Of a DNA stretch of 64,000 bases, positions 33,751 to 52,872 are shown one piece after another (position 1 is the first letter of the stretch; each line of letters begins with the position of its first letter). The translations under genes and the position numbers were made by a program. The notes below the pieces were generated by a model. It had not been told where the DNA came from, did not search any database, and saw only the letters and a program-made list of their open reading frames with translations. The DNA comes from an uncultured Paracoccaceae bacterium (GTDB taxonomy: Bacteria > Pseudomonadota > Alphaproteobacteria > Rhodobacterales > Rhodobacteraceae): NCBI GenBank assembly GCA_947492585.1, contig CANLND010000008.1, positions 1 through 64,000 on the forward strand, read 5' to 3'.

Positions 33751-33821
33751 GCTTCTTTTTGGCGAAAAATACCCCGGGGTGAATGCGCCCCAATAGGGGT
33801 GCAGAGGGGCAGCGCCCCTCT
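33751..33821 (+). repeat. Roseobacter-type 3'-end repeat, copy A
   Basis: GCTTCTTTTTGGC (33751–33763) runs into GAAAAATACCCCGGGG, then a GC hairpin AGAGGGGC-AGC-GCCCCTCT (33803–33821). It starts 27 bases past the transglycosylase stop, in the same direction as that gene, and ends ten bases before the convergent scoB stop. Confidence 0.8.
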
Positions 33822-33830
33822 GACCTGTGT

Positions 33831-34460
33831 TTAGTTGACGAGGGTGGCTTTGGTTGATGATCGCATTTCGTCTTCGCTGACCCCGTCGGCCAGTTCCACG
33901 ATCTTTAATCCGCCTTCGACCACATCCAGAACACCAAGGTTGGTGATGATTCGGTCCACAACACCTTTGCCCGTCAATGGCAGGGTGCATTCCGGCAGAA
34001 CCTTGCTGTCGCCATGTTTATTGGTGTGATCCATCACAACCACCACACGCCCCACACCTGCAACAAGATCCATCGCACCGCCCATGCCCTTGACCAGCTT
34101 GCCGGGGATCATCCAGTTGGCCAGATCGCCATTTTCGGCCACTTCCATGGCACCAAGGATCGCCATAGCAATCTTGCCGCCGCGAATCATCGCAAATGAC
34201 TGGGCGCTGTCGAAATATGCAGTTTGGGGCAATTCAGTAATGGTTTGCTTGCCAGCATTGATCAGGTCCGGGTCTTCGTCGCCTTCGTAGGGAAAAGGCC
34301 CCATGCCAAGCATACCGTTTTCAGATTGCAGCGTGACCTCAACCCCGTCGGGGATATAGTTGGAGACCAGCGTTGGAATGCCAATTCCAAGATTCACATA
34401 CCAGCCGTCTTGCAGTTCCTGTGCGGCGCGTGCCGCCATTTGGTTCCGATCCCAAGGCAT
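33831..34460 (-). CDS. scoB: 3-oxoacid CoA-transferase subunit B
   Basis: A 209-residue beta subunit of a succinyl-CoA:3-ketoacid CoA-transferase. The active-site glutamate is in [14 protein letters not shown]; the GIGIPTLV and [20 protein letters not shown] blocks are also family marks. The enzyme activates acetoacetate or related ketoacids with CoA from succinyl-CoA. The start overlaps the scoA stop by one base, giving equal translation of both subunits. Confidence 0.95.
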
Positions 34461-35182
34461 TATGCACCCTCCCTCTGACGAACTGTGCGCTGTTCGATGC
34501 GCTTCTCATGATCACCTTTGATAATGCGGTGCACATAGATGCCGGGCAGGTGAATGCTATCGGGATCCAAAGATCCGGTGGGGACGATCTCTTCGACCTC
34601 GACGACGCAGATTTTGCCGCAGGTGGCGGCAGGGGCATTAAAGTTCCGGGCGGTCTTGCGGAACACCAGATTGCCGGTTTCATCGGCTTTCCAGGCCTTC
34701 ACAATGGCCAGATCAGCAAAAATGCCCTCTTCCATGATATAGTCTTCCAGCGCGCCATCCGGTCCGGTGGGAAATTGTTTTTCCAGTTTTCCATCGGCAA
34801 TCACTGTGCCAACGCCGGTTTTGGTGAAAAAGCCGGGGATGCCCGCCCCTCCCGCACGCATGCGTTCCGCCAGGGTGCCCTGGGGGTTGAATTCCAGCTC
34901 CAGTTCACCGGACAAGTACTGGCGCATGAATTCGGCGTTTTCACCGACATAAGACGAGATCATCTTCTTGACCTGTTTGGTCTGCAACAAAATGCCGATG
35001 CCAAAGTCATCAACGCCTGCGTTGTTGGAAGCAAAAGACAGATCTTTGGTGCCGGCCTCTTTGATGGCCCGCAACAAAAGTTCAGGAATGCCGCAGAGGC
35101 CAAAGCCGCCTGCCGCAATCAACATGCCGTCAGTGAGCAGCCCGTCGAGGGCCGCCGTGGCATTGGGGTAGATTTTTTTCAT
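34460..35182 (-). CDS. scoA: 3-oxoacid CoA-transferase subunit A
   Basis: A 240-residue alpha subunit. The glycine-rich CoA-binding loop is in [20 protein letters not shown], and the family blocks [20 protein letters not shown] and [15 protein letters not shown] follow. It is first in the two-gene operon with scoB. Copy B of the 3'-end repeat lies 115 bases upstream of its start, belonging to topA. Degradation of ketone bodies or polyhydroxybutyrate is the expected role. Confidence 0.95.
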
Positions 35183-35296
35183 AAAGCCCTCCCGGCGTGA
35201 TGGTCCACAAAGTTGTGGCGCGCGGATGGGGGTAAGTCAATGAATACGGAGAGAACTGCGTATTTCTACGGAAGTCCGTCTGGGCCGAAAGAGGGG

Positions 35297-35347
35297 CGAG
35301 GGGCCAGCCCCTCGCGCTCCCCGGGGTATTTCGGGCCAAAAAGAAGC
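35297..35347 (-). repeat. Roseobacter-type 3'-end repeat, copy B
   Basis: On the minus strand GCTTCTTTTTGGC is followed by CCGAAATACCCCGGGG and a hairpin CGAGGGGC-TG-GCCCCTCG. It starts 46 bases past the topA stop and points the same way as topA. Confidence 0.8.
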
Positions 35348-35393
35348 ACTGGGGTAGCGTTGTGCGTCTTGCTGAGACCTCATTGGCAAAGGG

Positions 35394-38042
35394 CTATTTT
35401 GCGGTTGCCTTTTTGGTCGTTGCCTTCTTTTTTGCGGCCGGTTTTTTAGCGGCAGCTTTTTTCTTGGCAGGCTTCTTGCCCACTTTTTCGGTGATCAGCG
35501 CCAGGGCCTGCTCCAGCGTGACGTCTTTTGGCTCCACGTCTTTGGGCAGGGTCGCATTGACCTTTTCCCACTTTACGTAGGGGCCGTAGCGGCCCTCAAA
35601 GACATTGACGGCGCCGCCATCGGGGTGCGCACCCAGTTCTTTTAGGGCTTTGGCTGCTGCACCACGACGCCGGCCGGGATTGTTGCGCTTTTCGGTGATC
35701 AACTCCATTGCCCGGTTCATACCGATTTCAAAGACCTCAAGGGTTTCTTTGAGGTTGGCATAGACTGGTTTTTCCTCATCTGGCAGCTGGTGCATGATGT
35801 AGGGACCAAAGCGCCCCAGATTGGCGGCGATGACGCCGCCGTCGGGGTGTGGTCCGATTTCGCGCGGCAGGGTCAATAGGGTCAGCGCGCCTTCGAGGTT
35901 GATTTCCTCAGGGCTCCAACCGGGCAGATAGGCGCGGTTTTGTTTTGGCAAAGAGGCGCGCGGGGGCTTTTTGTTTTCCGGTGTGGCCTCGCCGCGCTGC
36001 ACGTAGGGGCCAAAGCGACCAGATTTCAAATGAATTTCGTCGCCGTCATCTTCGCCCAATACCCGTTCGTAGCCTTCGGCACCTTCGCCCGAAATCGGTC
36101 GGGTGTAGTTGCATTCCGGGTAATTGCCACAGCCCACAAAGCCACCGGTGCGTGAGGTTTTCAGGTGCAGGGCGCCCGCGCCACATTTGGGGCAGGACCG
36201 CGGGTCGGTGCCGTCTTCGCGGGGGGGGTACAGCTGCGGCGCCAGACGCTCGTCCAACACATCCAGCACTTCGGAGATGCGCAGATCTGAGGTTTCCGAG
36301 ATCGCGGCCGAGAAGTCGCGCCAGAATTGGCTGAGGATGTCTTTGTAATTGCGATCCCCGGCGCTGACGTCATCCAGTTCGGCTTCGAGGTTCGCGGTGA
36401 ACTCATAGCCGACATAGGTGCGGAAGAAGTTTTCAAGGAAGATCGTAACGATGCGGCCTTTGTCCTCGGGGAACAGGCGGTTCTTGTCCTTGCGGACGTA
36501 TTCGCGGTCTTGAATGGTGGTGATGACGCTGGCGTAGGTCGACGGTCGGCCGATGCCCAGTTCTTCCATACGTTTGACCAGCGTGGCCTCGGTGTAGCGG
36601 GGCGGTGGCTGGGTGTGGTGTTGCAGCGCCAGAACCGCCGTATTGTCCGACAAAATTGCGGCCTCGGCGCCCGCCTTGTCAAAATCGGCCTTGAGAGAGC
36701 TGCCAAATTTGATCGCTTCGCCCTGCATGATCTGCGGCAGGCGTTTGTCGTCGTCATCGCCTGAGGTCACGTCATCGCGGCCCTCTTCGTAGACCCGCAG
36801 GAACCCATCAAACAACATCACCTGACCTGAGGCGCGCAGGACAATCTGTGCGTCGCTTGACGTGATATCAACCGTGGTGCGTTCTAACCGGGCGCCGGCC
36901 ATCTGGCAGGCCAGCGTGCGTTTCCAGATCAGATCATACAGTTTACGCTGATCGTCCTCTGAGATTTTCAGGCTGGCGGCATCGCGGCTCATATCCGTGG
37001 GGCGGATACATTCGTGCGCTTCCTGAGCGTTTTTCGCTTTGTTCTTATAGATACGGGGGCTGTCTGGCACATATTCGGCCCCATAGCGGGTGCCGATCTC
37101 AGCGCGGGCTTCGGTGACGGCCTCAGGTGCCATATCAATGCCATCGGTCCGCATATAGGTGATCAGGCCAGCCTCATACAGGCGCTGGGCGGCGTTCATG
37201 CAATGTTTGGCACCCATGCCAAATTTGCGGCTGGCCTCTTGTTGCAGCGTCGAGGTCATAAAGGGGGCAGATGGATTGCGGGAGGCGGGTTTTGCCTCAA
37301 CCGATTTGACGGACAGATCGCGGCTGGCGACCGCTTGGACGGCCAGTTCAGCCGCCGTGGAGGTCGCAAGATCGAATTTGTCCAGCTTGTCGCCGCCCAG
37401 AACCGTCAGTCGCCCTTCAAAGGCCTGGCCACGGGGCGTTTGCAGTTGCGCCCGAACCGACCAGTATTCGCGGGGGTCAAACGCGTCGATCTCTGTTTCA
37501 CGTTCCACAATCAAACGCAGGCAAACCGATTGCACCCGGCCTGCCGACCGTGCGCCGGGCAGTTTGCGCCACAGAACTGGCGACAGGTTAAAGCCCACGA
37601 GGTAATCCAAGGCGCGGCGCGCAAGATAAGCTTCGACCAGCGGCATATCGACCTGACGCGGATTGCGCATCGCTTCGGTGACGGCTTCTTTGGTGATCGC
37701 ATTAAAGGTCACGCGGCTGACCGCCGTGGACTTTTTGATCGAACGCCGTTTGGTCAGCGCTTCCTGCAAGTGCCAGCTGATGGCTTCGCCTTCGCGATCA
37801 GGGTCAGTCGCGAGGATCAGTTCGTCATCGGTCTTGAGTGCGTCGGCGATCGCCTTGACGTGTTTGCGGCTGTCATTGGCCACTTCCCAGGTCATGGCAA
37901 AATCATCGTCGGTGTCGACCGATCCGTTTTTGGCGGGCAGATCCCGCACGTGTCCATATGAGGCCAGAACCGTATAGTCGGAGCCAAGATATTTGTTGAT
38001 AGTTTTAGCTTTGGCTGGCGATTCGACGACAACAACGGGCAT
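35394..38042 (-). CDS. topA: DNA topoisomerase I
   Basis: An 882-residue type IA topoisomerase that relaxes negative supercoils. The Toprim domain starts MPVVVVESPAKAKTINKYLG and has DPDREGE (residues 80–86). The catalytic tyrosine is Tyr296 in GLITYMRTDG. A four-cysteine zinc finger reads SCPKCG...GCGNYPEC near residue 590. Three C-terminal repeat domains with RFGPYV/I boxes are followed by a lysine/alanine tail (KKPAKKKAAAKKPAAKKK), common in alphaproteobacteria. I start at the ATG at 38042 because the 27 residues of the longer frame are not conserved-looking. Confidence 0.96.
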   Translation of the reverse strand: MPVVVVESPAKAKTINKYLGSDYTVLASYGHVRDLPAKNGSVDTDDDFAMTWEVANDSRKHVKAIADALKTDDELILATDPDREGEAISWHLQEALTKRRSIKKSTAVSRVTFNAITKEAVTEAMRNPRQVDMPLVEAYLARRALDYLVGFNLSPVLWRKLPGARSAGRVQSVCLRLIVERETEIDAFDPREYWSVRAQLQTPRGQAFEGRLTVLGGDKLDKFDLATSTAAELAVQAVASRDLSVKSVEAKPASRNPSAPFMTSTLQQEASRKFGMGAKHCMNAAQRLYEAGLITYMRTDGIDMAPEAVTEARAEIGTRYGAEYVPDSPRIYKNKAKNAQEAHECIRPTDMSRDAASLKISEDDQRKLYDLIWKRTLACQMAGARLERTTVDITSSDAQIVLRASGQVMLFDGFLRVYEEGRDDVTSGDDDDKRLPQIMQGEAIKFGSSLKADFDKAGAEAAILSDNTAVLALQHHTQPPPRYTEATLVKRMEELGIGRPSTYASVITTIQDREYVRKDKNRLFPEDKGRIVTIFLENFFRTYVGYEFTANLEAELDDVSAGDRNYKDILSQFWRDFSAAISETSDLRISEVLDVLDERLAPQLYPPREDGTDPRSCPKCGAGALHLKTSRTGGFVGCGNYPECNYTRPISGEGAEGYERVLGEDDGDEIHLKSGRFGPYVQRGEATPENKKPPRASLPKQNRAYLPGWSPEEINLEGALTLLTLPREIGPHPDGGVIAANLGRFGPYIMHQLPDEEKPVYANLKETLEVFEIGMNRAMELITEKRNNPGRRRGAAAKALKELGAHPDGGAVNVFEGRYGPYVKWEKVNATLPKDVEPKDVTLEQALALITEKVGKKPAKKKAAAKKPAAKKKATTKKATAK

Positions 38043-38181
38043 AAATGTGAAACCTCTTCGGACGGATACGGCGCGTTCTATGGCTGCGCTGAGTGTGGGG
38101 CGCAAGGGGAGATTGTCAATCAATGAGTGTCAATCGGGCCAAAGCGCCGCGGGTGTTGCCTTGGTGTACCCAAGGATCGTG

Positions 38182-38199
38182 AAGGTTTCGAAAAACCTT
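38182..38199 (-). terminator. TTCG-loop hairpin between dprA and topA
   Basis: On the minus strand AAGGTTT-TTCG-AAACCTT gives seven pairs with a stable UUCG tetraloop, 58 bases past the dprA stop. The T run lies before the stem, so termination is uncertain; it may protect the dprA 3' end. Confidence 0.4.
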
Positions 38200-38256
38200 T
38201 GGGCCGTAGCGTAAAAAAATATCAGGTAATCGATAAGTCCTTGTTGAATCTCGATG

Positions 38257-39408
38257 TTATTCGCTCTTGCGACTGAGCAGCCCGCCGGGCTGGCGATCGA
38301 TTTCGCCGGTCAGTTCCAGTTCGGTCAGGGCGGGCGCAATCTCGCGTGCTGGGGCTTGAATGTCACGGATCAGCTGGTCTTCGGCGGTGGGGGCGGGCCC
38401 CAAACGAGAGAGAATCTGCTGATGCAGGGCGTTTGTTTGCCGTAGCGTGCGCTGTTCGGGAGGGGGCAGAGGCACATCTTCCAGTCTGGGGTTTGGCGAT
38501 TGGGGCGGTGCGATTGCAGGGGGCAGGGCGGCGATTACATCTGCGCCACCGCGTACCAGATTGGCGCCGTCGCGGATCAGCATGTTGCAGCCGGCCGCGC
38601 GCGCATCAAAGGGATGGCCGGGCACCGCCAGTACCTCTCGTCCCAGATCCAGCGCATCGCGGGCGGTGATCAGGCTGCCAGAGCGCGCGGCGGCCTCGAC
38701 CACAACCAAGGCACGGGCCAGTCCGGCGATGATGCGATTGCGTTTGGGGAAATGACGCGCCTGCGGTGCCAATCCCATGGGTTGTTCCGACACCAACAGG
38801 CCTGTGTCGGCGATGCGTTGGGCCAGATCCGTGTTTTCCGAGGGGTAAATGACGTCGACCCCTCCCCCCAGTACCGCGATTGTGCCGGCCTCCAGCGCGG
38901 CTTCATGGGCGGCGGTGTCAATGCCACGCGCCAATCCGGATGTGGTGATATAGCCATGTTCGCCCAGTTCCCGCGCCAAGGCGCGCGCCATGCGCAGCCC
39001 CAATGAGGAGGCGTTGCGCGCGCCCACCAGAGCCACATTCTGTTTTTGCAACAAGGTGACATCACCGATGGCCCACAACACAGGTGGGGCGTCATGCAGG
39101 TTGGCCAATAGGGGAGGGTAATCGGGCTGTCCAAAGCACAAAAGCCGCGCTTTGGCGGCTTTTGCAGCTTGGATTTCGTCATCCACGGTGCGTTCTGGGC
39201 ATATTTCATACCCTTTTACACCGGCAATGCGTGCCACTTCGGGCAACGCGGCAAGCGCGTTCTGCGCTGAGCCATATTCGGCCAGCAAGCGATGAAATGT
39301 CACCGGGCCGACACGTCGAGAGCGCAACAGGCGGAGCCAGGAAAACTGAATATCTTCCGTGGTGGGTGGGAGTGGGGGGTGAGTGGAAGAAGGGGTTTCT
39401 TCGGTCAT
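38257..39408 (-). CDS. dprA: DNA processing protein DprA (Smf)
   Basis: A 383-residue protein that binds single-stranded DNA entering by transformation and loads RecA. The N-terminal helix-hairpin-helix region (WLRLLRSRRVGPVTFHRLLA) precedes the Rossmann-like core with VALVGARNASSLGLRMARAL, GLARGIDTAAHEAALEAGT and FPKRNRIIAGLARALVVVEA. A C-terminal winged-helix domain follows a proline-rich linker. Natural competence or gene transfer agent uptake is a possible context in this group. Confidence 0.95.
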   Translation of the reverse strand: MTEETPSSTHPPLPPTTEDIQFSWLRLLRSRRVGPVTFHRLLAEYGSAQNALAALPEVARIAGVKGYEICPERTVDDEIQAAKAAKARLLCFGQPDYPPLLANLHDAPPVLWAIGDVTLLQKQNVALVGARNASSLGLRMARALARELGEHGYITTSGLARGIDTAAHEAALEAGTIAVLGGGVDVIYPSENTDLAQRIADTGLLVSEQPMGLAPQARHFPKRNRIIAGLARALVVVEAAARSGSLITARDALDLGREVLAVPGHPFDARAAGCNMLIRDGANLVRGGADVIAALPPAIAPPQSPNPRLEDVPLPPPEQRTLRQTNALHQQILSRLGPAPTAEDQLIRDIQAPAREIAPALTELELTGEIDRQPGGLLSRKSE

Positions 39409-39570
39409 CCTTTGCTCCGCCTAGTTGCAAGACTAGAATTAACGGGAAGAGGGTTAACAGGTGGTGAATGTGCGAACTGTTTTCGTTGTTTTATTGAAAA
39501 ATGTGCGGGCTTTTGGGGCGGTGACCCCCCTGGACAGGTCGAGACGTTAACTGTTTCAGGTGAGTTATAC

Positions 39571-39604
39571 AGAAATAAGCATCTGGATTCAGATGCTTAT
39601 TTCT
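39571..39604. terminator. Fifteen-pair AT-rich hairpin downstream of tldD
   Basis: AGAAATAAGCATCTG (39571–39585) and CAGATGCTTATTTCT (39590–39604) are perfectly complementary around GATT. It lies 32 bases past the tldD stop. Neither side has a long T run (AGTTTT on the plus strand). A terminator or RNA-stabilising hairpin is the simplest reading; its AT-rich stem is unlike the other terminators here. Confidence 0.65.
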
Positions 39605-39608
39605 AGTT

Positions 39609-39620
39609 TTCCACGTGGAA
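39609..39620. promoter_or_regulatory. parS-like palindrome
   Basis: TTCCACGTGGAA is a perfect 12-bp palindrome. The 16-bp window TTTTCCACGTGGAACA (39607–39622) agrees with the ParB site TGTTTCACGTGAAACA at 13 of 16 positions, including the whole CACGTG core. It lies between the tldD stop and the hairpin. It may be a ParB site or merely an E-box-like palindrome. Confidence 0.35.
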
Positions 39621-39635
39621 CAAATGCTCCGAGGT

Positions 39636-41057
39636 TTAGGTGGCTGCGCCGCCAACCGTCAACCCATCCATCAGCACGCTGGGCTGTCCAACACCCACTG
39701 GAACCCACTGGCCCGCCTTGCCGCAGTTGCCCATGCCGGGATCCAGCGCCATGTCATTGCCAAGCGCGCGAATCTGTTTCAATGCATGCGCGCCGTCACC
39801 GATCAGCGTGGCGCCTTTGACGGGCTCGCCCACCTTACCGTTCTTGACCCGGTAGGCTTCGGTGCACGAGAACACAAACTTGCCGTTGGTGATGTCGACC
39901 TGACCACCGCCAAATCCCACCGCCCAGATGCCGTCCTTGATATCCGCCACCAGATCCTTTGGGTCCGCGGTGCCACCCAACATATAAGTATTGGTCATTC
40001 GCGGCATGGGCGCGTGCTCATAGCTTTGACGACGTCCGTTGCCGGTGGGCGCGACTCCCATCAGGCGGGCGTTTTGACGGTCCTGCATATATCCGACCAG
40101 AATGCCGTCTTCGATCAATGTGTTCTTTTGCGAGGGCGTGCCTTCATCATCCACAGTAATCGACCCGCGCCGATCGGGAATGGTGCCATCGTCTAATACG
40201 GTCACGCCGGGAGCCGCAATCCGTTGGCCCATCAACCCGGCAAAGGCCGAAGAGCCCTTGCGGTTAAAATCACCTTCCAGCCCGTGTCCGATGGCCTCGT
40301 GCAGCAGGATGCCGGGCCATCCGGGGCCCAACACCACTTCCATCACGCCCGCAGGGGCCGGAACCGCGGTAAGGTTGACCAGTGCCACGCGCAGGGCCTC
40401 GTGTACTTTGGCCTGCCAATTGGCCGGATCCACCAGCCCATCCAGACCGATACGTCCTCCGCCCCCGGCAGAGCCGCTTTCACGGCGGCCGTTCTCATCG
40501 ACGATCACCGAGACGTTGAGCCGCGCCATTGGGCGAATGTCACGCACACGCACGCCATCGGCGCGCAGGATTTCGATTTCTTGCAACGACGCCGCCAGCG
40601 AGGCCGATACCTGTACCACCCGTGGATCCAGATCGCGGGCAAAGGCGTCGATTTCGCGCAAAGTCTCAACTTTGACTGGGAACGGCATGGCTGCGATTGG
40701 ATCGGCGTCGGTGTAAAGCCGACTATTTGTCGCCTGTGGCGCATCTGCCATAGTGCCGCCCCCATCGCCCACCGCCAGACGCGCGGTCTCGGCGGCGCGG
40801 GTCAGGGCCGCCATCGACACGTCGGTGGAATGGGCATAGCCCGCGACGTCAGCATTGACGGCGCGCAGGCCAAACCCTTCGGACGCGTCATAACTGGCAG
40901 ACCGTAACCGCCCGTCATCAAACACTAAAGACTCAGATTTGCGGCGTTCGGCAAAAATCTCGCCATCGTCAGCCCCGGCCAGCGCAGAGCGCAAGGTTGC
41001 CAGCGCATCCTCCTCGGGCAGGGTGGTCTCAAATGGTCGAAAGTCGGCATTGTCCAT
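39636..41057 (-). CDS. tldD: Metalloprotease TldD
   Basis: A 473-residue zinc metalloprotease that works with TldE (PmbA) to process small peptides. The zinc motif HEAIGHGLEGDF is near residue 256; family blocks GFGLRAVNADVAGYAHSTDV and the C-terminal GQVDITNGKFVFSCTEAYRV agree. TldE is not in the window. The start codon lies 20 bases from a perfect FNR box that also precedes the divergent coxB. Confidence 0.96.
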   Translation of the reverse strand: MDNADFRPFETTLPEEDALATLRSALAGADDGEIFAERRKSESLVFDDGRLRSASYDASEGFGLRAVNADVAGYAHSTDVSMAALTRAAETARLAVGDGGGTMADAPQATNSRLYTDADPIAAMPFPVKVETLREIDAFARDLDPRVVQVSASLAASLQEIEILRADGVRVRDIRPMARLNVSVIVDENGRRESGSAGGGGRIGLDGLVDPANWQAKVHEALRVALVNLTAVPAPAGVMEVVLGPGWPGILLHEAIGHGLEGDFNRKGSSAFAGLMGQRIAAPGVTVLDDGTIPDRRGSITVDDEGTPSQKNTLIEDGILVGYMQDRQNARLMGVAPTGNGRRQSYEHAPMPRMTNTYMLGGTADPKDLVADIKDGIWAVGFGGGQVDITNGKFVFSCTEAYRVKNGKVGEPVKGATLIGDGAHALKQIRALGNDMALDPGMGNCGKAGQWVPVGVGQPSVLMDGLTVGGAAT

Positions 41058-41076
41058 GAACTGACCCCAGTTTTTT

Positions 41077-41090
41077 TTGATTTAAATCAA
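41077..41090. promoter_or_regulatory. Perfect FNR/FnrL box between tldD and coxB
   Basis: TTGAT-TTAA-ATCAA matches the FNR consensus TTGAT-N4-ATCAA exactly. It is centred 170 bases before coxB and 26 bases before tldD. FnrL is the oxygen sensor of Rhodobacteraceae, so oxygen-dependent control of the aa3 oxidase is a natural inference. A coxB leader hairpin TTCGGAA/TTCCGAA is at 41183–41203. Confidence 0.75.
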
Positions 41091-41252
41091 GAAAGCGACG
41101 CTTTGACGCGAGCATTCCTCTTTATCTGTCGCAAGGAATATGATTTTTACCAGCCTCAAAGACAACGGGGTTAAGTGTGTTTTTCGGAATCAATCGTTCC
41201 GAAGGGCAAAAACCCGCCCCAAACCGATGCGATCAACCGATCAGGACATGAT

Positions 41253-42149: not shown

Positions 42150-42162
42150 GACGGATCCACAG

Positions 42163-44845: not shown

Positions 44846-44874
44846 GCGCGCGGGGCAAAATCCCGCGCGCTTTT
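44846..44874 (+). terminator. Rho-independent terminator after coxC
   Basis: GCGCGCGGG (44846–44854) pairs with CCCGCGCGC (44862–44870) around seven bases and is followed by TTTT. It separates coxC from the SURF1 gene, whose start codon follows within about 20 bases. Confidence 0.85.
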
Positions 44875-44893
44875 GCCATGAATGAGAGGCCCC

Positions 44894-45574
44894 ATGCGGC
44901 GTATCATCTTCTTTCTTCTGATCAGCGGGCTGGGTCTTGTGACCCTGTTGTCACTGGGCATCTGGCAGGTGGGGCGACTAGAGTGGAAAGAGGGCAAGCT
45001 TGCGGAAATCGAAGCCCGCATTGCTGAGGCCCCGGTGCCCATGCCCGCCAATCCTGACCCTCTTGTCGACAAATACCAGCCTGTTGAAATCAGCGGTCAA
45101 TTTGAGAGCGGAGAACTGCATGTTCTGACCTCTGTCAAAGGTCCAGGCCCCGGCTATCGCGTGATTGCGCCATTTGTGCTGACCGACGGTCGGCGCATCA
45201 TGGTTGAACGTGGCTTTGCACCCAGCCGCGCGAAAAACACACCGCGCCCGCTCGGGGCGGCCCAGCTTGAGGGCAATCTCCACTGGCCGGTGGAGGTGGA
45301 CGGGTTTACGCCGGCGCCCGACACCGACGTCAACATTTGGTACGCCCGCGATGTGGCGCCAATGGCCGACACCTTGAACACACTGCCTATTTTGGTCATT
45401 CAGCGCTCAGACACCGCCTCGGGCCTGCGATTGATGCCGGTCGGAATTGACGGCATTGCCAATGATCACTTGCAATATGCACTCACCTGGTTTTCGCTGG
45501 CCTTTATCTGGGCCGCAATGACTGTCTATTTTTTGCGGCGCTCGCGCGCCAACTCCAAAGGTTCTAAGATATGA
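44894..45574 (+). CDS. SURF1-family cytochrome oxidase assembly protein
   Basis: A 226-residue protein with two membrane helices, one near each end (RIIFFLLISGLGLVTLLSLG; LTWFSLAFIWAAMTVYFLRR). It has the SURF1 marks GIWQVGRLEWKEGKL, VLTDGRRIMVERGF and NDHLQYALTWFSLA. SURF1 helps insert heme a3 into subunit I. The start at 44894 (MRRII) has AGAGG only four bases upstream; an in-frame ATG at 44882 has none but remains possible. Its stop overlaps the thrC start. Confidence 0.92.
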   Translation: MRRIIFFLLISGLGLVTLLSLGIWQVGRLEWKEGKLAEIEARIAEAPVPMPANPDPLVDKYQPVEISGQFESGELHVLTSVKGPGPGYRVIAPFVLTDGRRIMVERGFAPSRAKNTPRPLGAAQLEGNLHWPVEVDGFTPAPDTDVNIWYARDVAPMADTLNTLPILVIQRSDTASGLRLMPVGIDGIANDHLQYALTWFSLAFIWAAMTVYFLRRSRANSKGSKI

Positions 45575-46959
45575 AATACATCTCGACCCGTGGCCAGGCG
45601 CCAGAGCTGACATTCGAAGAGGCGATGCTGACTGGTCTCGCCCGCGATGGCGGCCTGTACGTGCCCGCTGAAATCCCGACACTGAGCCGCGAAGACATCG
45701 CCGCGCTGAAGGGGCTCTCGTATGAAGAAACCGCGTATCGGGTGATGCGTCCCTTTGTGGGCGACAGTTTCACCGATGAAGAGTTTCGCGGCATCATCGC
45801 CCGCGCCTACGAAGGTTTTGGCCACGCCGCCCGCGCGCCGCTGAAACAGCTGGCGCCAAATCATTTCCTGATGGAACTGTTCCACGGCCCGACCTTGGCG
45901 TTCAAAGACTTTGCCATGCAGCTGATTGGTCAGCTGTTTCAGGTCGCTCTGAAACGCCGCGGCGAAAGCGTCACCATCGTTGGTGCAACCTCGGGCGACA
46001 CCGGGTCGGCGGCGATGGAGGCTTTTGCCGGTCTGGACGCTGTAAATGTGTTCATCATGTACCCGCATGGCCGTGTCTCGGAAGTGCAGCGCCGTCAGAT
46101 GACCACCCCCACGGCCTCTAACGTGCACGCGCTGGCCGTAGATGGTGATTTTGATGATTGTCAGGCCCGCCTGAAAGACATGTTCAACGATTTTGACTTC
46201 CGCGATGAGGTCAAACTGGCCGGTGTGAACTCCATCAACTTTGCCCGTGTTCTGGCGCAGGTGGTGTATTACTTCACCTCCGCTGTCAGTTTGGGCGCGC
46301 CGGATCGCAAAATTTCGTTCACCGTGCCCACAGGCAACTTTGGCGATGTGTTCGCCGGTTTTATCGCCAAACAGATGGGCCTGCCCATTGATCAGCTGGT
46401 GGTCGCCACCAACCAGAACGATATTTTGCACCGCTGCCTGTCGGGTCAGGGGTACCACAAAGGCGACACCATTCCCTCAATCTCACCCTCAATGGATATT
46501 CAGGTCTCGTCCAATTTTGAACGCGCCTTGTTTTATGCCTATGGGCAAGATGGCGCCGCTGTGGCCCAGCTGATGGATGAATTGAAAACTGGCGGCTTTG
46601 AAGTCTCTCAGGGTGCGATGCAGGCACTTGGCGAAACCTATGTGTCAGGCCGCGCGTCTGAAACTGAAACGCTTGCCACAATCCAGTCCGAGCTGGCCGC
46701 GTCAAATGAACTGCTGTGCCCGCACGGCGCGGTGGGGGTGAAAGTGGCCAATGAACATCGCTGCGCGGCGACGCCGATGGTGACACTGGCCACCGCGCAT
46801 CCGGCGAAATTCCCGGCTGCTGTAAAACAGGCCAGCGGCGTGCATCCCGCTCTTCCCCCGCGCATGGCGGACCTGTATGACAGATCGGAAACACTGACCC
46901 AGATCACCAATGATCTGACAGTCCTTGAAGATCACATCAGAAAGACAATCGCCAAGTGA
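45571..46959 (+). CDS. thrC: Threonine synthase
   Basis: A 462-residue PLP enzyme converting O-phosphohomoserine to threonine. The pyridoxal lysine is Lys112 in HGPTLAFKDFAMQ; the phosphate-binding loop is VGATSGDTGSAAMEAFAGL, and the N-terminal TRGQAPELTFEEAMLTGLA is typical of the long class. It overlaps the SURF1 gene by four bases and is followed by the M16 peptidase with a GTGA overlap, so three unrelated functions share one transcript. Confidence 0.96.
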   Translation: MKYISTRGQAPELTFEEAMLTGLARDGGLYVPAEIPTLSREDIAALKGLSYEETAYRVMRPFVGDSFTDEEFRGIIARAYEGFGHAARAPLKQLAPNHFLMELFHGPTLAFKDFAMQLIGQLFQVALKRRGESVTIVGATSGDTGSAAMEAFAGLDAVNVFIMYPHGRVSEVQRRQMTTPTASNVHALAVDGDFDDCQARLKDMFNDFDFRDEVKLAGVNSINFARVLAQVVYYFTSAVSLGAPDRKISFTVPTGNFGDVFAGFIAKQMGLPIDQLVVATNQNDILHRCLSGQGYHKGDTIPSISPSMDIQVSSNFERALFYAYGQDGAAVAQLMDELKTGGFEVSQGAMQALGETYVSGRASETETLATIQSELAASNELLCPHGAVGVKVANEHRCAATPMVTLATAHPAKFPAAVKQASGVHPALPPRMADLYDRSETLTQITNDLTVLEDHIRKTIAK

Positions 46960-48218
46960 CGGTTCAACAACACCAGCTCTCCAACGGCTTTCGCATTGTC
47001 ACCGAACAGATGCCCGGACTTCAGTCCGCCTCTATTGGCATCTGGGTGGCAGCGGGCGCCCGCAATGAACGCGCCGCGCAAAATGGCATCGCTCATTTTC
47101 TCGAACATATGGCGTTCAAGGGCACCAAAACCCGCTCGGCTTTGCAAATCGCAGAGTCGATCGAGGATGTGGGCGGTTATATCAACGCCTACACCAGCCG
47201 TGAGGTCACCGCCTATTACGCCCGCGTGTTGAAAGAAGACACCGGGCTGGCGATGGAAGTGATCGCCGACATTCTGCAAAATTCAATCCTGGATCCCCGT
47301 GAGATCGAGGTAGAGCGCAATGTGATCCTGCAGGAAATCGGCCAGGCGCTGGACACGCCCGATGATGTGATCTTCGACTGGCTGCAAGAAAAATGCTACG
47401 CGGATCAGCCCATCGGCCGCAGTATTCTTGGCCCGGCAGAACGCGTCAAAGCGTTCTCACAGGCCGATCTGGCGGGGTTTGTCGCCGAACATTATGGCCC
47501 CTCGCAGATGATTCTGTCCGCAGCAGGCGGCATTGATCACGACGAAATTGTCAAACTGGCTGAACAGCTGTTTGGCGACATGCAGCGTAAACCCACAGCG
47601 GTGGCCGCAGCTGCGCGCTTCACCGGCGGCGAAATCCGTCAGGACAAAGTGCTCGAGCAGGCCCATTTTGCGCTGGCGCTCGAAGGTCCGGGGTACCGCG
47701 ATGATGCGATCTACACCGCGCAGATCTATGCCAGTGCCATGGGCGGCGGCATGTCTTCGCGCCTGTTTCAGGAAATCCGCGAAAAACGCGGCCTGTGCTA
47801 CACGATCTTCTCGCAGGCCGGCGCCTATGCCGACACGGGCGCGCTGACGATCTATGCCGGCACCTCTGGGGAACAGATCGGTGAACTGGCCACGGTGACG
47901 ATTGATGAACTCAAACGCGCCGCGGATGACATGACTGACGCCGAAGTCGCCCGCGCGCGCGCGCAGATGAAGGCCGGAATGCTAATGGGGCTCGAAAGCC
48001 CGTCCAACCGCGCCGAACGTCTGGCCCGTCTGGTGCAGGTCTGGGACGATGTGCCCTCGCTTGAAGAAGCCATCGCCAAGATCGATTCCGTCACCACCGC
48101 CGACGTGCGCGCCATCGCCGCCGCTTACGCGGTGCAGGCCCCAGCGGCGCTGGCCCTGTATGGCCCGGTCACAGGTGCACCCGATCTGGCAGCATTGCAG
48201 GCACGGCGTTCGGCGTGA
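46956..48218 (+). CDS. M16-family zinc peptidase (mitochondrial processing peptidase-like)
   Basis: A 420-residue peptidase with a GTG start overlapping the thrC stop. The inverted zinc motif HFLEH is at residues 47–51 (NGIAHFLEHMAFKG), and the distal glutamate lies in REIEVERNVILQEI. The C-terminal half holds the second, inactive lobe with the GGGMSSRLFQEIREKRGLCY substrate-binding block. It is close to the beta subunit of mitochondrial processing peptidase, and linkage to thrC is widespread in alphaproteobacteria. Confidence 0.94.
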   Translation: MTVQQHQLSNGFRIVTEQMPGLQSASIGIWVAAGARNERAAQNGIAHFLEHMAFKGTKTRSALQIAESIEDVGGYINAYTSREVTAYYARVLKEDTGLAMEVIADILQNSILDPREIEVERNVILQEIGQALDTPDDVIFDWLQEKCYADQPIGRSILGPAERVKAFSQADLAGFVAEHYGPSQMILSAAGGIDHDEIVKLAEQLFGDMQRKPTAVAAAARFTGGEIRQDKVLEQAHFALALEGPGYRDDAIYTAQIYASAMGGGMSSRLFQEIREKRGLCYTIFSQAGAYADTGALTIYAGTSGEQIGELATVTIDELKRAADDMTDAEVARARAQMKAGMLMGLESPSNRAERLARLVQVWDDVPSLEEAIAKIDSVTTADVRAIAAAYAVQAPAALALYGPVTGAPDLAALQARRSA

Positions 48219-48808
48219 TGTTGCTGTCGCGTCGCAAGGTCCGTCTGGAAACTGAGCGTTTGACGTTGCGCTTGCCCGCCCATTCCGATTTTCGCGAATG
48301 GGCGGCCCTGCGGCTGCACAGTCAAGACCACCTCACCCAGTGGGAGCCCAGCTGGGCGGCGGATCACCTCAGCCGCAAAGCCTTTTCAAATCGGGTCTAC
48401 TGGGCGCAACGTTCGGTGGCTGCGGGCACAGCTATGCCGCTGTTTCTGGTGCGCCGCGACGATCAGGCGCTGGTAGGGGCGGTGACGCTGGACAACATCC
48501 GCCGCGGCCCGGCTCAGGCGGGCACCATCGGGTATTGGACCGGTCTGCCCTTTGCCCGCCAGGGCTACATGCGTGAAGCCATTGCCGCAGTGGTCCACCA
48601 CGCCTTCACCAAACTGGACCTCAGCCGGATCGAAGCCGCCTGTCTGCCAGAAAATACCGCGTCACGCGGCGTATTGGAACGTTCCAGCTTCAAATACGAA
48701 GGCGTGGCGCAGTCATATCTGCAAATCAACGGCCGCTGGCGCACCCATGTGCTGTATGCGGCGCTGCGCCATGATCGCCGTGGCCGGACCCTGGCCGGAC
48801 AAGCCTGA
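48218..48808 (+). CDS. GNAT-family acetyltransferase, RimJ/RimL-like
   Basis: A 196-residue GNAT protein. The N-terminal LETERLTLRLPAHSDFREWA and WEPSWAADHLSRKAFSNRVY match the RimJ subfamily, which acetylates N-termini of ribosomal proteins. Motif A appears as IGYWTGLPFARQGYMREAIA, and motif B as NTASRGVLERSSFKYEG. The start overlaps the M16 stop (TGATG); a GTG one codon earlier is possible. Copy C of the 3'-end repeat follows. Confidence 0.9.
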   Translation: MLLSRRKVRLETERLTLRLPAHSDFREWAALRLHSQDHLTQWEPSWAADHLSRKAFSNRVYWAQRSVAAGTAMPLFLVRRDDQALVGAVTLDNIRRGPAQAGTIGYWTGLPFARQGYMREAIAAVVHHAFTKLDLSRIEAACLPENTASRGVLERSSFKYEGVAQSYLQINGRWRTHVLYAALRHDRRGRTLAGQA

Positions 48809-48833
48809 TCCGTCGCGCTGCCGCGCCTTTTTT

Positions 48834-48897
48834 GCTTCTTTTTGGCTGAAAATACCCCGGGGGAGCGTGCCCTGTGGCACGCGGGGGCAGCGCCCCC
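48834..48897 (+). repeat. Roseobacter-type 3'-end repeat, copy C
   Basis: GCTTCTTTTTGGC is followed by TGAAAATACCCCGGGGG and then two hairpins, GCGTGCC-CTGT-GGCACGC and GGGGGC-AGC-GCCCCC. It begins 25 bases past the GNAT stop, same direction. Confidence 0.82.
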
Positions 48898-48958
48898 GAT
48901 CTGCGCGCCCCACAGCGGATGACTTGTCAAACCCCGCGCGATTGCCCATGCATAGAAC

Positions 48959-50386
48959 ATGACTGATTTGCGCGCCGCCACCCCGGATTTTCTCAACGCC
49001 CTGTCCGCTCAACTGCCCGCAGATACCCTGCGCGCCGCGGATCCCCGGTATCTGGAAGAACCCAGAGGCCGCTTTCACGGACAGGCCAGTGCGGTGGCCT
49101 TGCCACGCACCGCGCAAGAGGTTTCAACTCTTGTCCGCGCCGCCCATATGGCCCGTGTTCCGGTGGTCCCCTATGGCGGGGGCACCGGTCTTGTGGGCGG
49201 GCAGATCGTCGAAACCCATCCCGCGCCGTTAGTGATCAGCCTCGAACGCATGAACAAGATCCGCGCCGTCCACCCGACCGAGAACGTGATCGTGGCCGAA
49301 GCCGGCGCGATCCTTGCGCAGGTGCAGGCTGCGGCAGCGCATTCTGATCGCCTGTTTCCTCTGTCTCTGGCCGCCGAAGGCTCGGCCCAGATCGGTGGAA
49401 ATCTGGCCACCAACGCAGGTGGGGTGACTGTCCTGCGCTATGGCAACACCCGCGATCTGTGTCTGGGGTTGGAGGCGGTTCTGCCCAATGGTGACATCTG
49501 GAACGGCCTGACCCGCCTGCGCAAAGACAACACGGGCTATGATCTGCGCAATCTGTTGGTCGGCAGCGAAGGCACATTGGGCGTGATCACCGCCGCTGCC
49601 CTGAAACTGGCTCCGCGCCCGCGCCACTCAGGCACCGCGCTGTTGGTGGTGCCCTCTGTGGAAGCTGCCATTGATCTCTTGGCACTCACCCGTGATCTGA
49701 TCGGGGATGGAGTCAGCGCTTTTGAACTGATCCACCAGCAGGGGTTGCAGTTTTTGACCGAGCATGTGCCGCAGGTGCGTCAACCGTTTGCCACGCCCCC
49801 TCAATGGTCTGTGCTGATTGATCTGGGCCTTCCTCGCAACCGCGACGTTCAACGGGAGCTGCTGGCGCTGTTTGAACTGGCCTCAGAACGTGGGCTGGTT
49901 CTGGACGGTGTCATCGCACAATCCGTTGCACAGGCACAGGAGCTGTGGAGCGTTCGTGAACACATCCCCGTGGCCAACAAAAAAGTCGGCTCGATTGCCA
50001 GTCACGATATTTCCGTACCGATCTCTCAGATCCCCGATTTCATCCGCCGGGCGGGACCCGCGCTGGCGCAGCTGGGGGATCTGCGGATCAACTGCTTTGG
50101 GCATTTGGGCGATGGCAACCTGCACTACAATGTCTTCCCGGCCAAAGGCCGGACCCGGGGGGACTATGCCGACATCAGCAGCCAAATCAGCCCTCTCGTC
50201 CATGATCTTGTGGCGGACTTCGGAGGCTCGTTTAGCGCCGAGCACGGGGTCGGGCGGCTCAAAGTTGCAGATCTCGAACGCTATGGTGACCCGGTCAAGC
50301 TGGCTGCCATGCGGGCCATCAAACAGGCGCTGGATCCGCGGGGCATCATGAACCCCGGCGCGGTGCTGCGCGCTCCGATGGGCTGA
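48959..50386 (+). CDS. FAD-linked oxidoreductase, glycolate/D-lactate dehydrogenase family
   Basis: A 475-residue flavoprotein of the PCMH-type FAD family. The FAD site reads VVPYGGGTGLVGGQIVETHP, followed by AEGSAQIGGNLATNAGGVTV and RKDNTGYDLRNLLVGSEGTL. The C-terminal oxidase domain has NCFGHLGDGNLHYNVFPAKG and the terminal EHGVGRLKVADLERYGDP. The substrate is probably a 2-hydroxyacid such as D-lactate or D-2-hydroxyglutarate; the sequence alone does not decide. It is a single gene between two hairpins. Confidence 0.92.
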   Translation: MTDLRAATPDFLNALSAQLPADTLRAADPRYLEEPRGRFHGQASAVALPRTAQEVSTLVRAAHMARVPVVPYGGGTGLVGGQIVETHPAPLVISLERMNKIRAVHPTENVIVAEAGAILAQVQAAAAHSDRLFPLSLAAEGSAQIGGNLATNAGGVTVLRYGNTRDLCLGLEAVLPNGDIWNGLTRLRKDNTGYDLRNLLVGSEGTLGVITAAALKLAPRPRHSGTALLVVPSVEAAIDLLALTRDLIGDGVSAFELIHQQGLQFLTEHVPQVRQPFATPPQWSVLIDLGLPRNRDVQRELLALFELASERGLVLDGVIAQSVAQAQELWSVREHIPVANKKVGSIASHDISVPISQIPDFIRRAGPALAQLGDLRINCFGHLGDGNLHYNVFPAKGRTRGDYADISSQISPLVHDLVADFGGSFSAEHGVGRLKVADLERYGDPVKLAAMRAIKQALDPRGIMNPGAVLRAPMG

Positions 50387-50404
50387 CCCGCGCGCGCTCT
50401 GCGC

Positions 50405-50435
50405 GGGCAAAAGCAACAGTTGGCTGTTTTTGCCC
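50405..50435. terminator. Bidirectional terminator between the FAD enzyme and apt
   Basis: GGGCAAAA (50405–50412) pairs with TTTTGCCC (50428–50435), with an inner CAG/CTG. A GC hairpin CCCGCGC/GCGCGGG (50387–50407) overlaps its left arm. The gene on the left ends at 50386 and the leftward apt ends at 50450, so it serves both. Confidence 0.75.
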
Positions 50436-50449
50436 GGCAGTCGTCGGCG

Positions 50450-50989
50450 TTACAGCCCGTCAAATTCACACAAGACATGCACATCCATGCCTTGCGATTC
50501 CAAAAGCTTACGACCGCCCAGTTCTGGCAGATCCACGATGAACGAACAGGATACAATCTCTCCACCCAAACGCTGGATCAGCTTGATCCCGGCACCCGCT
50601 GTGCCCCCCGTGGCCAGTAGATCATCGACCACCAGAATTTTTTCACCGGGTTTGATGGCGTCGTCGTGGATCTCTACAATCGCTTCGCCGTATTCCAGCT
50701 TGTACTCTTCGCTGATGGTGGTGCCGGGCAGTTTGCCTTTTTTGCGAATTGGCACAAATCCAACGCTCAGCTGGTGCGCAATGGCCCCGCCAAGGATAAA
50801 CCCGCGCGCTTCGAGGCCAACAACCTTGTCGATCTGTTCGCCCGCATAGGGGTGCAGCATTTTGTCGATCGCCATGCGAAATCCACGCGGATCGGCAAAC
50901 AGGGTGGTCACATCACGGAACATGATGCCTTCATGGGGGAAATCCACGATGGTGCGGATGTAGTCTTTGACGTCGGGTTTCTTGGACAT
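50450..50989 (-). CDS. apt: Adenine phosphoribosyltransferase
   Basis: A 179-residue salvage enzyme converting adenine and PRPP to AMP. The PRPP loop is [20 protein letters not shown], and the dimer segment [19 protein letters not shown] and [20 protein letters not shown] agree with bacterial Apt. I use the ATG at 50989 ([14 protein letters not shown]), since the 13 extra codons upstream are not Apt-like. With mtnP nearby it closes the methylthioadenosine salvage route. Confidence 0.96.
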
Positions 50990-51127
50990 GGCCGGGTTCC
51001 CTGGGATCGTTGCAGCGGTCAGGACCAAGGGGCGGCCCCGCGTTCGCCGTGGGTAATGACCTGTCCGTACAGCGCTTGCAAGTCTTTCAGAGCAGTGGGG
51101 GCTGTGACCGTGCGTCTGGTCTGGCGG

Positions 51128-51787
51128 CTAGGAGTTTGGCACCTCCCGGGAGGTGTTTGTTTCAACCTCGACGCTGGCCGCAGCAAGCGCCATCAGCATC
51201 AAGGTCGCCCCCCCCAGCCGGGTTAGCCCTGCGATGATCGACGGGCGCGCAATGCGTTGACGCAGTCGATCCGCCAGCAGCGCATAAAGCAGCGCGTTCA
51301 CCCCGGCAAGGGTCACGAAGGTGACGATCAATATCACAAACTGCGGCAGCAGAGGTTCTGTCGGAAGCAGGAACTGCGGAACAAAGGCAACAAAAAACAC
51401 AATGGATTTTGGGTTGAGCGCCGTCACAACGGCCGCATGCGCAAACACCCCAGAAGCATCTACATCCGCCATGTCACGTCGCGCCCCAAGTCCCTGCGCG
51501 GTCGCTGCGCTGCGCCATAGTGTGATCCCCAGCCACAAAAGATAGGCGGCGCCGATCCATTTCAGCGCCACAAACACCGTGGCGGACGCCATCACCAGCG
51601 CCCCCAGACCAGCAAGCGAGGCTGTCATGGCGATCAGATCCCCGGTGGCAACGCCAAGCGCGGACGCCACCGCGACCTGTCGACCTCTGGACAGCGCATA
51701 GCTGAGCACCAAGAGAACGGTCGGGCCGGGGATCATCAGCAGGGCAACAGAGGCGGCGACAAAGGCCAGCCACAGGTTCAGGTCCAT
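51128..51787 (-). CDS. LysE/RhtB-family amino-acid exporter
   Basis: A 219-residue membrane protein with six hydrophobic helices. The N-terminal LMIPGPTVLLVLSYALSRGR carries the family PGP motif, and ASALGVATGDLIAMTASLAG and ALNPKSIVFFVAFVPQFLLP are conserved positions. Substrate specificity cannot be read from sequence. It lies between apt and mtnP on the same strand, separated from both by about 100 bases. A 16-bp perfect palindrome (51140–51155) lies near its 3' end. Confidence 0.9.
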   Translation of the reverse strand: MDLNLWLAFVAASVALLMIPGPTVLLVLSYALSRGRQVAVASALGVATGDLIAMTASLAGLGALVMASATVFVALKWIGAAYLLWLGITLWRSAATAQGLGARRDMADVDASGVFAHAAVVTALNPKSIVFFVAFVPQFLLPTEPLLPQFVILIVTFVTLAGVNALLYALLADRLRQRIARPSIIAGLTRLGGATLMLMALAAASVEVETNTSREVPNS

Positions 51788-51845
51788 GGAATCTCCTTTT
51801 TAAATTCCTGGTTGAGTAAACTAAAAAGGGCGCCAGAGAACAAGA

Positions 51846-51869
51846 CGGGCCCGGTGCTGTTCGGGCCCG
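51846..51869 (-). terminator. Terminator-like hairpin after mtnP
   Basis: CGGGCCCG occurs at 51846–51853 and again at 51862–51869; being self-complementary, the copies pair around eight bases. It is 22 bases past the mtnP stop, with TCTTGTTCTC following on the minus strand. Confidence 0.65.
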
Positions 51870-51890
51870 CAGTGGTGTTTGGGTGAGGGT

Positions 51891-52769
51891 TTACCCCAAA
51901 ACCCGACCTGCGACCGCGTCCAGCTTTGTCAGCAGGGCAGGGTCGCGTTTTTCCGGCGCGGTCATGATGGCGAACTCCAGCGCAGTGTCGCAGCCATGCG
52001 GGCAATTTTCGCGGGTGGCTCCCAACAGGTCTGGTAGGCGGCGCACCATGTCGCGGGCATTGCTGGAATTGCCCTGCAACGTGGCGATAATATCAGTGAT
52101 TTCCACCGCGCCGTGGTCAGGGTGCCAGCTGTCAAAATCGGTGACCATGGCGATGGAGGCATAGCAGATCTCAGCCTCGCGGGCCAATTTCGCCTCGGGC
52201 ATATTGGTCATACCAATGACATCGCAGCCCCAGCTTTCGCGGTACATTTTTGATTCTGCCATCGTCGAGAACTGTGGCCCCTCCATGCACAGATAGGTGC
52301 CGCCCCGGTGCACGGTGATGCCCGCAGCGCGCGCCGCAGTCTCGGCGGCATCGGACAGGCGTTCACAGGTGGGATGGGCAACGCTGACATGGGCCACGCA
52401 GCCCGTGCCAAAGAAGCTTTTTTCACGGGCGAAAGTGCGGTCAATGAATTGATCTACAATGACAAAATGCCCCGGCTCCATTTCCTCGCGGAAAGATCCA
52501 CAGGCCGAGACCGAAAAGATATCGGTGACACCTAGGCGTTTCAGCGCGTCGATATTGGCGCGGTAGGGGATTTCGGTCGGGCTGTGCACATGGCCGCGCC
52601 CGTGGCGGGGCAGAAAGGCCATTTTGACGCCGTTTAGCGCACCGGTCAGGATTTGATCGGACGGCGCGCCCCAGGGGGTGTCGACGCTGATCCACTGGGT
52701 GTTTTCCAACCCATCGATTTCATAAAGACCCGAGCCGCCGATGACGGCAATCATGGTTTCTGTGGTCAT
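51891..52769 (-). CDS. mtnP: S-methyl-5'-thioadenosine phosphorylase
   Basis: A 292-residue nucleoside phosphorylase that splits methylthioadenosine into adenine and 5-methylthioribose-1-phosphate. The phosphate loop is IAVIGGSGLYEID; FLPRHGRGHVHSPTEIPYRA and GGTYLCMEGPQFSTMAESKM are signature blocks, and the ribose/base residues include MTNMPEAKLAREAE. The adenine released is the substrate of Apt encoded downstream. Start at 52769 follows TGCAGGAGCAGAACC, a good ribosome site. Confidence 0.95.
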   Translation of the reverse strand: MTTETMIAVIGGSGLYEIDGLENTQWISVDTPWGAPSDQILTGALNGVKMAFLPRHGRGHVHSPTEIPYRANIDALKRLGVTDIFSVSACGSFREEMEPGHFVIVDQFIDRTFAREKSFFGTGCVAHVSVAHPTCERLSDAAETAARAAGITVHRGGTYLCMEGPQFSTMAESKMYRESWGCDVIGMTNMPEAKLAREAEICYASIAMVTDFDSWHPDHGAVEITDIIATLQGNSSNARDMVRRLPDLLGATRENCPHGCDTALEFAIMTAPEKRDPALLTKLDAVAGRVLG

Positions 52770-52831
52770 TGGTTCTGCTCCTGCAACTGCTGGGGCCTGT
52801 ATGGCTTTTGACAGGTGGTTTTGGCAAGCGG

Positions 52832-52872
52832 CGGAGGCCTCCGGCGGGGGTATTTCAGAGCCAAAAAGAAGC
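52832..52872 (-). repeat. Roseobacter-type 3'-end repeat, copy D
   Basis: On the minus strand GCTTCTTTTTGGC is followed by TCTGAAATACCCCCG and the palindrome CGGAGGCCTCCG. It starts nine bases past the stop of the gene at 52882, same direction. Confidence 0.75.

Follow-up and report, generated by a model that had tools for sequence, protein, structure and literature searches.

Short palindromic repeats with a species-specific core spelling at gene junctions of a Paracoccaceae bacterium and its relatives

Interspersed palindromes of bacterial genomes are usually explained by transposition or by a local RNA function. REPINs and BIMEs are arrangements of the repetitive extragenic palindromic (REP) type, and Rickettsia palindromic elements are found both between genes and in frame within the protein genes of alphaproteobacteria. 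DNA uptake sequences, which are often located at gene ends, are known to come in dialects. One account sorts the repeats of the REP/RAYT system into GTAG- and CGTC-tagged super-families, and mentions a palindromic element (RPE) of R. conorii with a CGTC end as well as intragenic REPs (PMC3733652); another describes the PIT/TM_ECO motif of E. coli, a potential intrastrand triplex element, as intergenic and free of strand bias, with its runs in the order C, G, G (PMC4666352). Here we describe an element present in four copies in a stretch of 64,000 nucleotides (hereafter the window: positions 1 to 64,000 of contig CANLND010000008.1 of assembly GCA_947492585.1, G000:C8:1-64000 in our numbering) from an uncultured Paracoccaceae bacterium. 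The four look-alikes belong to a short palindromic repeat family at gene junctions of this bacterium and its relatives. The core of the element is spelled in a species-specific dialect, which is invisible in the window alone and needs other genomes to be seen.

The genome that contains the window (G000) is 95.6% complete and comprises 3.59 Mb in 83 contigs. In it, GCTTCTTTTTGGC occurs 53 times, against 2 occurrences for a reversed control, and TTTTTGGC-N0..8-AAATAYC occurs 56 times, against 0. A core pattern with a fixed gap (up to 3 mismatches) recovers one of the four window copies and gives 0 matches in 100 shuffles; the other three are missed because their linker is shorter. On these reversed-control and shuffle comparisons, chance origin of the core was rejected. 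We extracted 63 copies with their flanks from this genome, and a sequence-only model built from them, applied to the best 150 of 2476 candidates, reaches E 0.5 or better at no fewer than 81 places. Counts over six species refer to a set of 126 copies.

The element is roughly 40–85 bp long and consists of a 5' block, CTTC..TTTT(GGC), a near-random linker, a 3' block, AAATA-YYY-C, and then usually one of two palindromic ends; the linker leads into AAATACCC. AAATA is perfect in 46 of 53 own-genome copies that were chosen by their 5' block alone. The spacing from GGC to TACC is 6 nt in 45 of the 63 own-genome copies, 7 nt in 10 and 5 nt in 8, and the first three linker letters of the 45 copies with 6-nt spacing form 26 different triplets (0.08–0.24 bits per position). 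By eye, about 44 of the 63 copies are of type 1, 14 are of type 2 (..CGCCGGAGGC) and 5 have no clear form of either. The usual palindrome is missing from three copies in this genome (L014, L031, L066) that read AAATACCCA, which may have decayed or be of another nature. In another genus (G242), the core stands without a GC palindrome in 4 of 15 copies, as judged by eye, and the core is therefore the more constant part of the element. One such core without a palindrome (L253, also G242) lies inside a called gene.

Type 1 ends follow a layout of C4, a G run (G1), a segment X, a second G run (G2), a triloop and a C run (C2), while type 2 copies end in CCCGCCGGAGGC, mostly followed by a hairpin like that of an intrinsic terminator. 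With 23 of the 126 copies unparsed, 103 type 1 copies could be compared: G1 equals G2 in length in 98 (shuffle mean 38.7, maximum 57), G2 equals C2 in 91 and G1 equals C2 in 89. C4 and the loop covary with zero exceptions, as C-G in 97 copies and T-A in 6. These regularities suggest, as read from the sequences, a type 1 geometry in which G2 and C2 would form a hairpin, G1 would be docked along it and C4 would touch the loop. Two equal G runs with a matching C run, an intergenic location and the lack of strand bias are shared with PIT/TM_ECO; in our element, however, the order is G, G, C, the consensus letters are others, a conserved AT-rich bipartite core precedes the runs, and there are coding copies and a species dialect. 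Segment X is variable, with 34 distinct forms among 40 in our genome, and the first-pass annotation correctly saw hairpins that vary and keep pairing: in the countable X hairpins of the six species there are 328 Watson-Crick, 5 GU and 1 AC pairs.

The dialect resides in the core. We call the C/T triplet (YYY) of the 3' block the code, and the pattern AAATAYYYCGGGG admits all eight C/T codes. With this pattern, the code is CTC in all 13 copies of G001, CCT in 21 of 22 in G002 and CTT in 17 of 19 in G003. Elsewhere in the family, it is TCC in 25/25 copies of G110 and CTC in 14/19 of G151, and among the matches listed for three further genomes it is CTC in 26/26 (G159), TCC in 23/26 (G109) and CTC in 23/26 (G027). 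Many genomes thus strongly favour one code, and some do so weakly. The 5' block also varies, and within a genome it follows the code: in our own, the 5' spelling CTTTTTGGC is paired with CCC in 41 of 43 tabulated copies, and in G005 CTTTTGGC is paired with CTC in 18 and CATCTTTT with TCC in 10 of 28 tabulated copies, with zero mixed copies. The 5' block and the code are untied across genera, CTTTTTGGC being found with CTC in G242 and with TCC in G106. The dialect of our genome is rare: it is present in 9 of 295 family genomes, our own included, and in 10 stretches of genome_contigs, of which one Sulfitobacter supplies two and records that are unrelated or unplaced the other eight.

Respelling is also seen in copies within genes. 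All nine copies called intragenic in the six-species set are in-frame insertions, without stop codons, in two genes with xanthine dehydrogenase Pfam domains. In xdhA the element is in the sense orientation and lies between the [2Fe-2S] and FAD domains, and in xdhB it is antisense and lies between two molybdopterin-binding domains (Pfam ranges in both cases). It is present in xdhA of 14 of the 18 genus genomes (absent from G000, G009, G015 and G016) and in xdhB of 14 of the 17 with data (absent from G014, G015 and G016; G009 is without data). Within X of the xdhA copy, 11 of 14 species share an identical AGGTCGCAGACC; the code meanwhile changes, and with it the protein: CCT (G002, G007, G008, G010) gives P, CTT (G003, G014, G017) and CTC (G001) give L, and TCT (G004, G006, G012) and TCC (G005, G011, G013) give S. 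The codes in xdhA and xdhB are the same in 11 of the 13 species that carry both. In xdhA of G001 (L163), the in-frame element carries about four repeats of its GCAGAGCCCCC arm, which appear as AEPP repeats in the protein. Insertion in frame within protein genes together with intergenic copies recalls Rickettsia palindromic elements. In contrast to those, our element was seen in two host genes only, plus one intragenic copy in G242, and its consensus has no CGTC end.

The filled and empty sites in xdhA and xdhB among relatives are what would be left by a mobile family of REP, REPIN or MITE type that uses an enzyme other than Y1/RAYT, in which case the dialect would be the latest active subfamily, re-inserting at or overwriting old sites. 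We regard this main alternative as unlikely. It would also accommodate the diversity of X within our genome, and some mobility at some time is likely from the insertions and from facing doublets in another genus. Yet the linker is diverse within an otherwise constant core, the xdhA copy keeps its X segment while its code changes, and by eye no clean target duplication is seen at the xdh sites or at the window sites compared.

A site between genes shows the same combination of kept position and changed spelling. At the site of the fourth window copy (position 52872), an orthologous element is present in 5 of 9 relatives compared, with a spelling that varies by species: CTTTTGGC/CTC in G005, CATCTTTT/CCT in G006 and G007, CACCTTTT/CTC in G001 and CATCTTTT/CTT in G003. 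G016 has a relic there, TTTTTGGCTAAAAACACCCCC, with blocks like those of our genome, and G004, G012 and G014 have no element at this site. Several relatives retain CTTGCCAA or CTTGTCAA 3' of this copy. By eye, no copy in the same orientation was found at sites 33751 and 48834 in the eight relatives compared per site, although G005 shows a diverged, oppositely oriented copy at the latter. G006 and G012 carry a type 2 copy at the topA junction, adjacent to the same downstream gene; in G006, a further gene separates it from topA. Blast coordinates match five further pairs of copies by position between G000 and G005 (L030/L111, L051/L100, L045/L113, L054/L102, L024/L097), and X mostly differs within them, which speaks for the mobile family and is compatible with replacement as well as descent.

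Taken at the level of sequence, then, the anatomy, the positions, the orthology of some copies and the differences in spelling at the same locus beside a free linker are established. Our preferred explanation, to which we give about even credence, is that the element is an old REP/PIT-like interspersed palindrome whose core is recognised in trans by a putative cell factor. Its copies sit mainly at convergent or tandem junctions, rarely at divergent ones, and form an in-frame coding linker in at least two genes. The putative factor, a protein or an RNA, would be sequence-specific and may read the core as DNA or as RNA; when its specificity shifts, the copies would follow. A guide RNA with complementarity to the core was among the candidates considered. 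More weakly, the element might act as an orientation-indifferent boundary between neighbouring genes. We take trans recognition as likeliest because the core is respelled broadly in concert throughout a genome without the linker, or at xdhA the hairpin, following suit; neither local RNA function nor simple transposition explains this.

Several points weigh against this explanation. Some genomes are mixed: with AAATAYYYCGGGG, the 53 copies of G004 are divided between TCC (34), TCT (14), CCT (3) and CCC (2); with AAATAYYYCSGSSG, the 49 of G007 are divided between TCC (34), CCT (9), TCT (4) and CCC (2), 6 of the 9 CCT copies being of type 2; and in G080 the code is TCC in 16/26 among the matches listed, with four other codes besides. 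Old and new subfamilies may coexist in such genomes, which are the strongest evidence for the mobile family. The lack of mixed copies in G005 could also reflect copying of the core in one piece. G007 departs from its majority code at site 52872, the codes in xdhA and xdhB differ in G003 and G007, and all six T-A cases of the C4/loop pair are in our own genome. G015 and G016, which are nearly free of copies, have the lowest G+C among eleven genomes sampled, a confounder for the distribution. Orthologous loci are not independent owing to species kinship, and we therefore report counts and no p-value; the junction classes below depend on gene calls from a home-made codon model. Finally, no recognition factor was found, Y1_Tnp being the only candidate searched for.

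The family is widespread but uneven. AAATAYYYCSGSSG has at least 10 matches in 100 of 149 family genomes and at most 3 in 33 (median 25, maximum 210), against at most 6 in any of them for its reversed control, and element DNA beyond the genus was inspected in G106, G242, G248 and G286. Counts of the terminal hairpin GGGGCAGMGCCCC among the genus genomes are 0–4 in G009 (67% complete), G014, G015, G016 and G017, and 12–53 in the other 13. Two loci of G242 (L245, L257) hold a pair of type 2 copies in facing orientation, some 20–45 bases apart, as an inverted doublet that resembles a REPIN or BIME; an arrangement of this kind would suit a mobile family. On the largest contig of G007, 43 copies lie without clear clustering (gap variance p 0.077), and a chromosome-position effect was set aside.

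Our element has much in common with REP, BIME and REPIN sequences, namely short interspersed palindromes that are mostly intergenic, rarely divergent, sometimes intragenic and sometimes in inverted doublets, with a conserved block left unpaired at the hairpin base. It differs from REP/RAYT in that the consensus of 63 copies, by eye, has neither a GTAG nor a CGTC tag, and in that its spelling differs between species at orthologous sites. Moreover, the Y1/RAYT transposase domain (Y1_Tnp, PF01797) was undetected in 16 of the 18 genus genomes, including our own; G009 and G010 gave matches, and a control search was positive in 5 of 14 genomes. Membership in the RAYT-REP system was rejected on these grounds (no detection in our genome and in 15 of the 17 others), and the same result tells against the mobile family. 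The REP-like family proposed in the first-pass annotation holds in part, and fits better than its 3'-end reading: the interspersed palindromes and their mostly convergent or tandem placement agree with it, and the undetected Y1/RAYT in our own genome does not.

Other origins were also considered. The window has zero Rfam matches at gathering score, and a described Rfam RNA family was rejected; at E up to 1 in four loci, there were HCV_5BSL1 (E 0.032, L024 3021-3057, far below gathering score), taken as chance, and wcaG (E 0.38, twice), in one stretch apart from the copies. A phage or plasmid origin found no match with one dialect pattern against viral_contigs and one 76-base query against plasmids and phages. 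The RNA spelling of the 5' block was not found in the literature searched, which falls short of subscription journals. With the same journals thinly covered, the matches listed for DNA spellings were unrelated to the element, four AAATA..CGGGG spellings were absent from the matches listed in one search, and topic searches listed no title on the element.

In the other of its two readings, the first-pass annotation took the four window copies as a sense-strand feature of mRNA 3' ends. An RNA element of this kind, whether it serves as terminator, as processing site or as stability hairpin, would be under selection in the sense strand and would explain why all four window copies are in sense and why copies usually lie near a stop codon. 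Genome-wide, however, the sense rule fails. Of the 126 copies, tandem junctions hold 30 in sense and 27 in antisense (14 and 11 in our own genome), convergent junctions 54 (33) and divergent junctions 4 (2); 9 (1) are intragenic and 2 (2) are at locus edges, so that 117 lie outside called genes (2 of these at locus edges). Under strict gene calls, which require well-scored neighbour genes within 300–400 bases and leave out 33 far, 8 edge and 9 inside-gene cases of the 126, the 76 junctions comprise 33 convergent, 23 tandem sense, 18 tandem antisense and 2 divergent, with 9 tandem sense against 6 antisense in our own genome. Of the two properties by which the 3' untranslated region (3'-UTR) proposal was to be judged, proximity to stop codons is thus borne out and orientation bias is not. 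The copies in antisense tandem positions and those in frame, sense in xdhA and antisense in xdhB, mean that the element is not 3'-UTR-only or terminator-only, and a 3'-UTR function confined to the sense strand cannot be the general explanation. Taken as the whole explanation, the RNA element is in our judgement quite improbable, and by itself a local RNA function would leave the dialect unexplained.

Individual copies may nevertheless take part in termination. As in intrinsic terminators, GC hairpins come after stop codons, and T runs go with part of the type 2 ends and with some upstream hairpins; in contrast, a T run seldom follows the right hairpin of type 1, and there are antisense and in-frame copies. 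With 11 of the 126 copies unparsed, at least 4 T fall within the 8 nt after the right hairpin in 8 of 13 type 2 copies, against 10 of 102 of type 1. A terminator role is therefore possible for part of the copies; plausible candidates are limited to type 2 ends and to copies preceded by a hairpin. Among 107 classified copies (17 of the 126 were left out with an unrecognised 5' block and 2 more were unclassified), 14 have a strong hairpin whose end falls no more than 5 nt ahead of the core, and 10 of these 14 are convergent, so that the T-rich block of some copies also belongs to an ordinary terminator. The closest relative by topA protein, G016 (94%), has an ordinary terminator-like hairpin at the position of the second window copy, as an RNA element would allow. 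The GU against AC pairs lean to the sense strand, but at 5 against 1 are too few to assign a strand. Against shuffles, only the first window copy folds clearly better as RNA (z -4.0); the remaining three have z values of -0.4, -1.4 and +0.9, and these three tell against an RNA element.

Some placements stand apart by their neighbours, whose names come from reading translations. An antisense copy at about 87.06 kb of C10 in our genome (L053) lies in a short gap between adjacent ABC-transporter-ATPase-like genes, about 10 bases before the start codon of the second, and two copies (L013, L017) lie in divergent gaps before thrS-like and ndk-like genes.

The window copies themselves are detailed in Table 1. 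All four, with the core ascribed to them, are present where the first-pass annotation placed them, and its distance of 9–46 bases past a same-strand stop codon agrees with our measurements of 26, 46, 25 and 9 bases. The first lies between convergent genes and the others are tandem sense, after topA, the GNAT gene and a gene at the traced site, respectively. Three of the upstream gene names are backed by Pfam; the fourth gene has no match at E 1e-5. Sequences resembling a TTGNCA -35 box follow the third and fourth copies (window 48834-48990 and 52760-52840), a promoter reading made by eye.

Table 1. The four copies of the element in the window and the genes upstream of them.
Feature	Coordinates	Strand	Details
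Copy 1, type 1	33751..33822	+	5' block 33751-33763; AAATACCCC 33767-33775 (C4 = 33775); G1 33776-33779; X with hairpin 33780-33805; G2-loop-C2 33806-33818
Copy 2, type 1	35297..35347	-	5' block 35347-35335; AAATACCCC 35331-35323; G1 35322-35319; X 35318-35312; GGGGCTGGCCCC 35311-35300
Copy 3, type 1	48834..48897	+	5' block 48834-48846; AAATACCCC 48850-48858; G1 48859-48863; X hairpin 48864-48882; G2 48883-48887; loop 48888-48892; C2 48893-48897
Copy 4, type 2	52837..52872	-	5' block 52872-52860; AAATACCCC 52855-52847; CCCGCCGGAGGC 52848-52837
SLT transglycosylase gene, upstream of copy 1	32906..33724	+	PF01464
DNA topoisomerase I gene (topA), upstream of copy 2	35394..38042	-	PF01131, PF13368, PF01751, PF01396
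GNAT acetyltransferase gene, upstream of copy 3	48215..48808	+	PF13302, PF00583, PF13420
Gene upstream of copy 4	52882..54366	-	Open reading frame

A genome-wide spelling that differs between related species is also a property of DNA uptake sequences. If the core were preferred by a DNA-uptake or transfer machinery, a molecular drive by biased transfer, with copies following the taste of the machinery, would account for dialects, free linkers, tolerated coding copies and indifference to orientation. We consider this very improbable, as the palindromic ends would go unexplained and the element, a larger composite, is far sparser than uptake sequences (63 copies extracted and at least 81 scored in 3.59 Mb).

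Trans recognition of the core can be carried further, tentatively, to a genome-wide address system, which we hold to be possible rather than probable. Tens to about 200 palindromic sites per genome would carry a core read by a fast-evolving, species-specific putative trans factor, or by two where dialects stay unmixed, as in G005; even coding copies would be respelled, and sites would decay on loss of the factor, as the relic in G016 suggests. In any case, apparently vertically inherited copies stay in place (and at xdhA retain their hairpin) while their core is respelled broadly in step with the genome, even where this changes amino acids. The dialect implies that the copies evolve in concert without the usual enzyme, or else that they co-evolve with a putative recognition factor, and the dialects of the different species are ready-made swap material for finding that factor.

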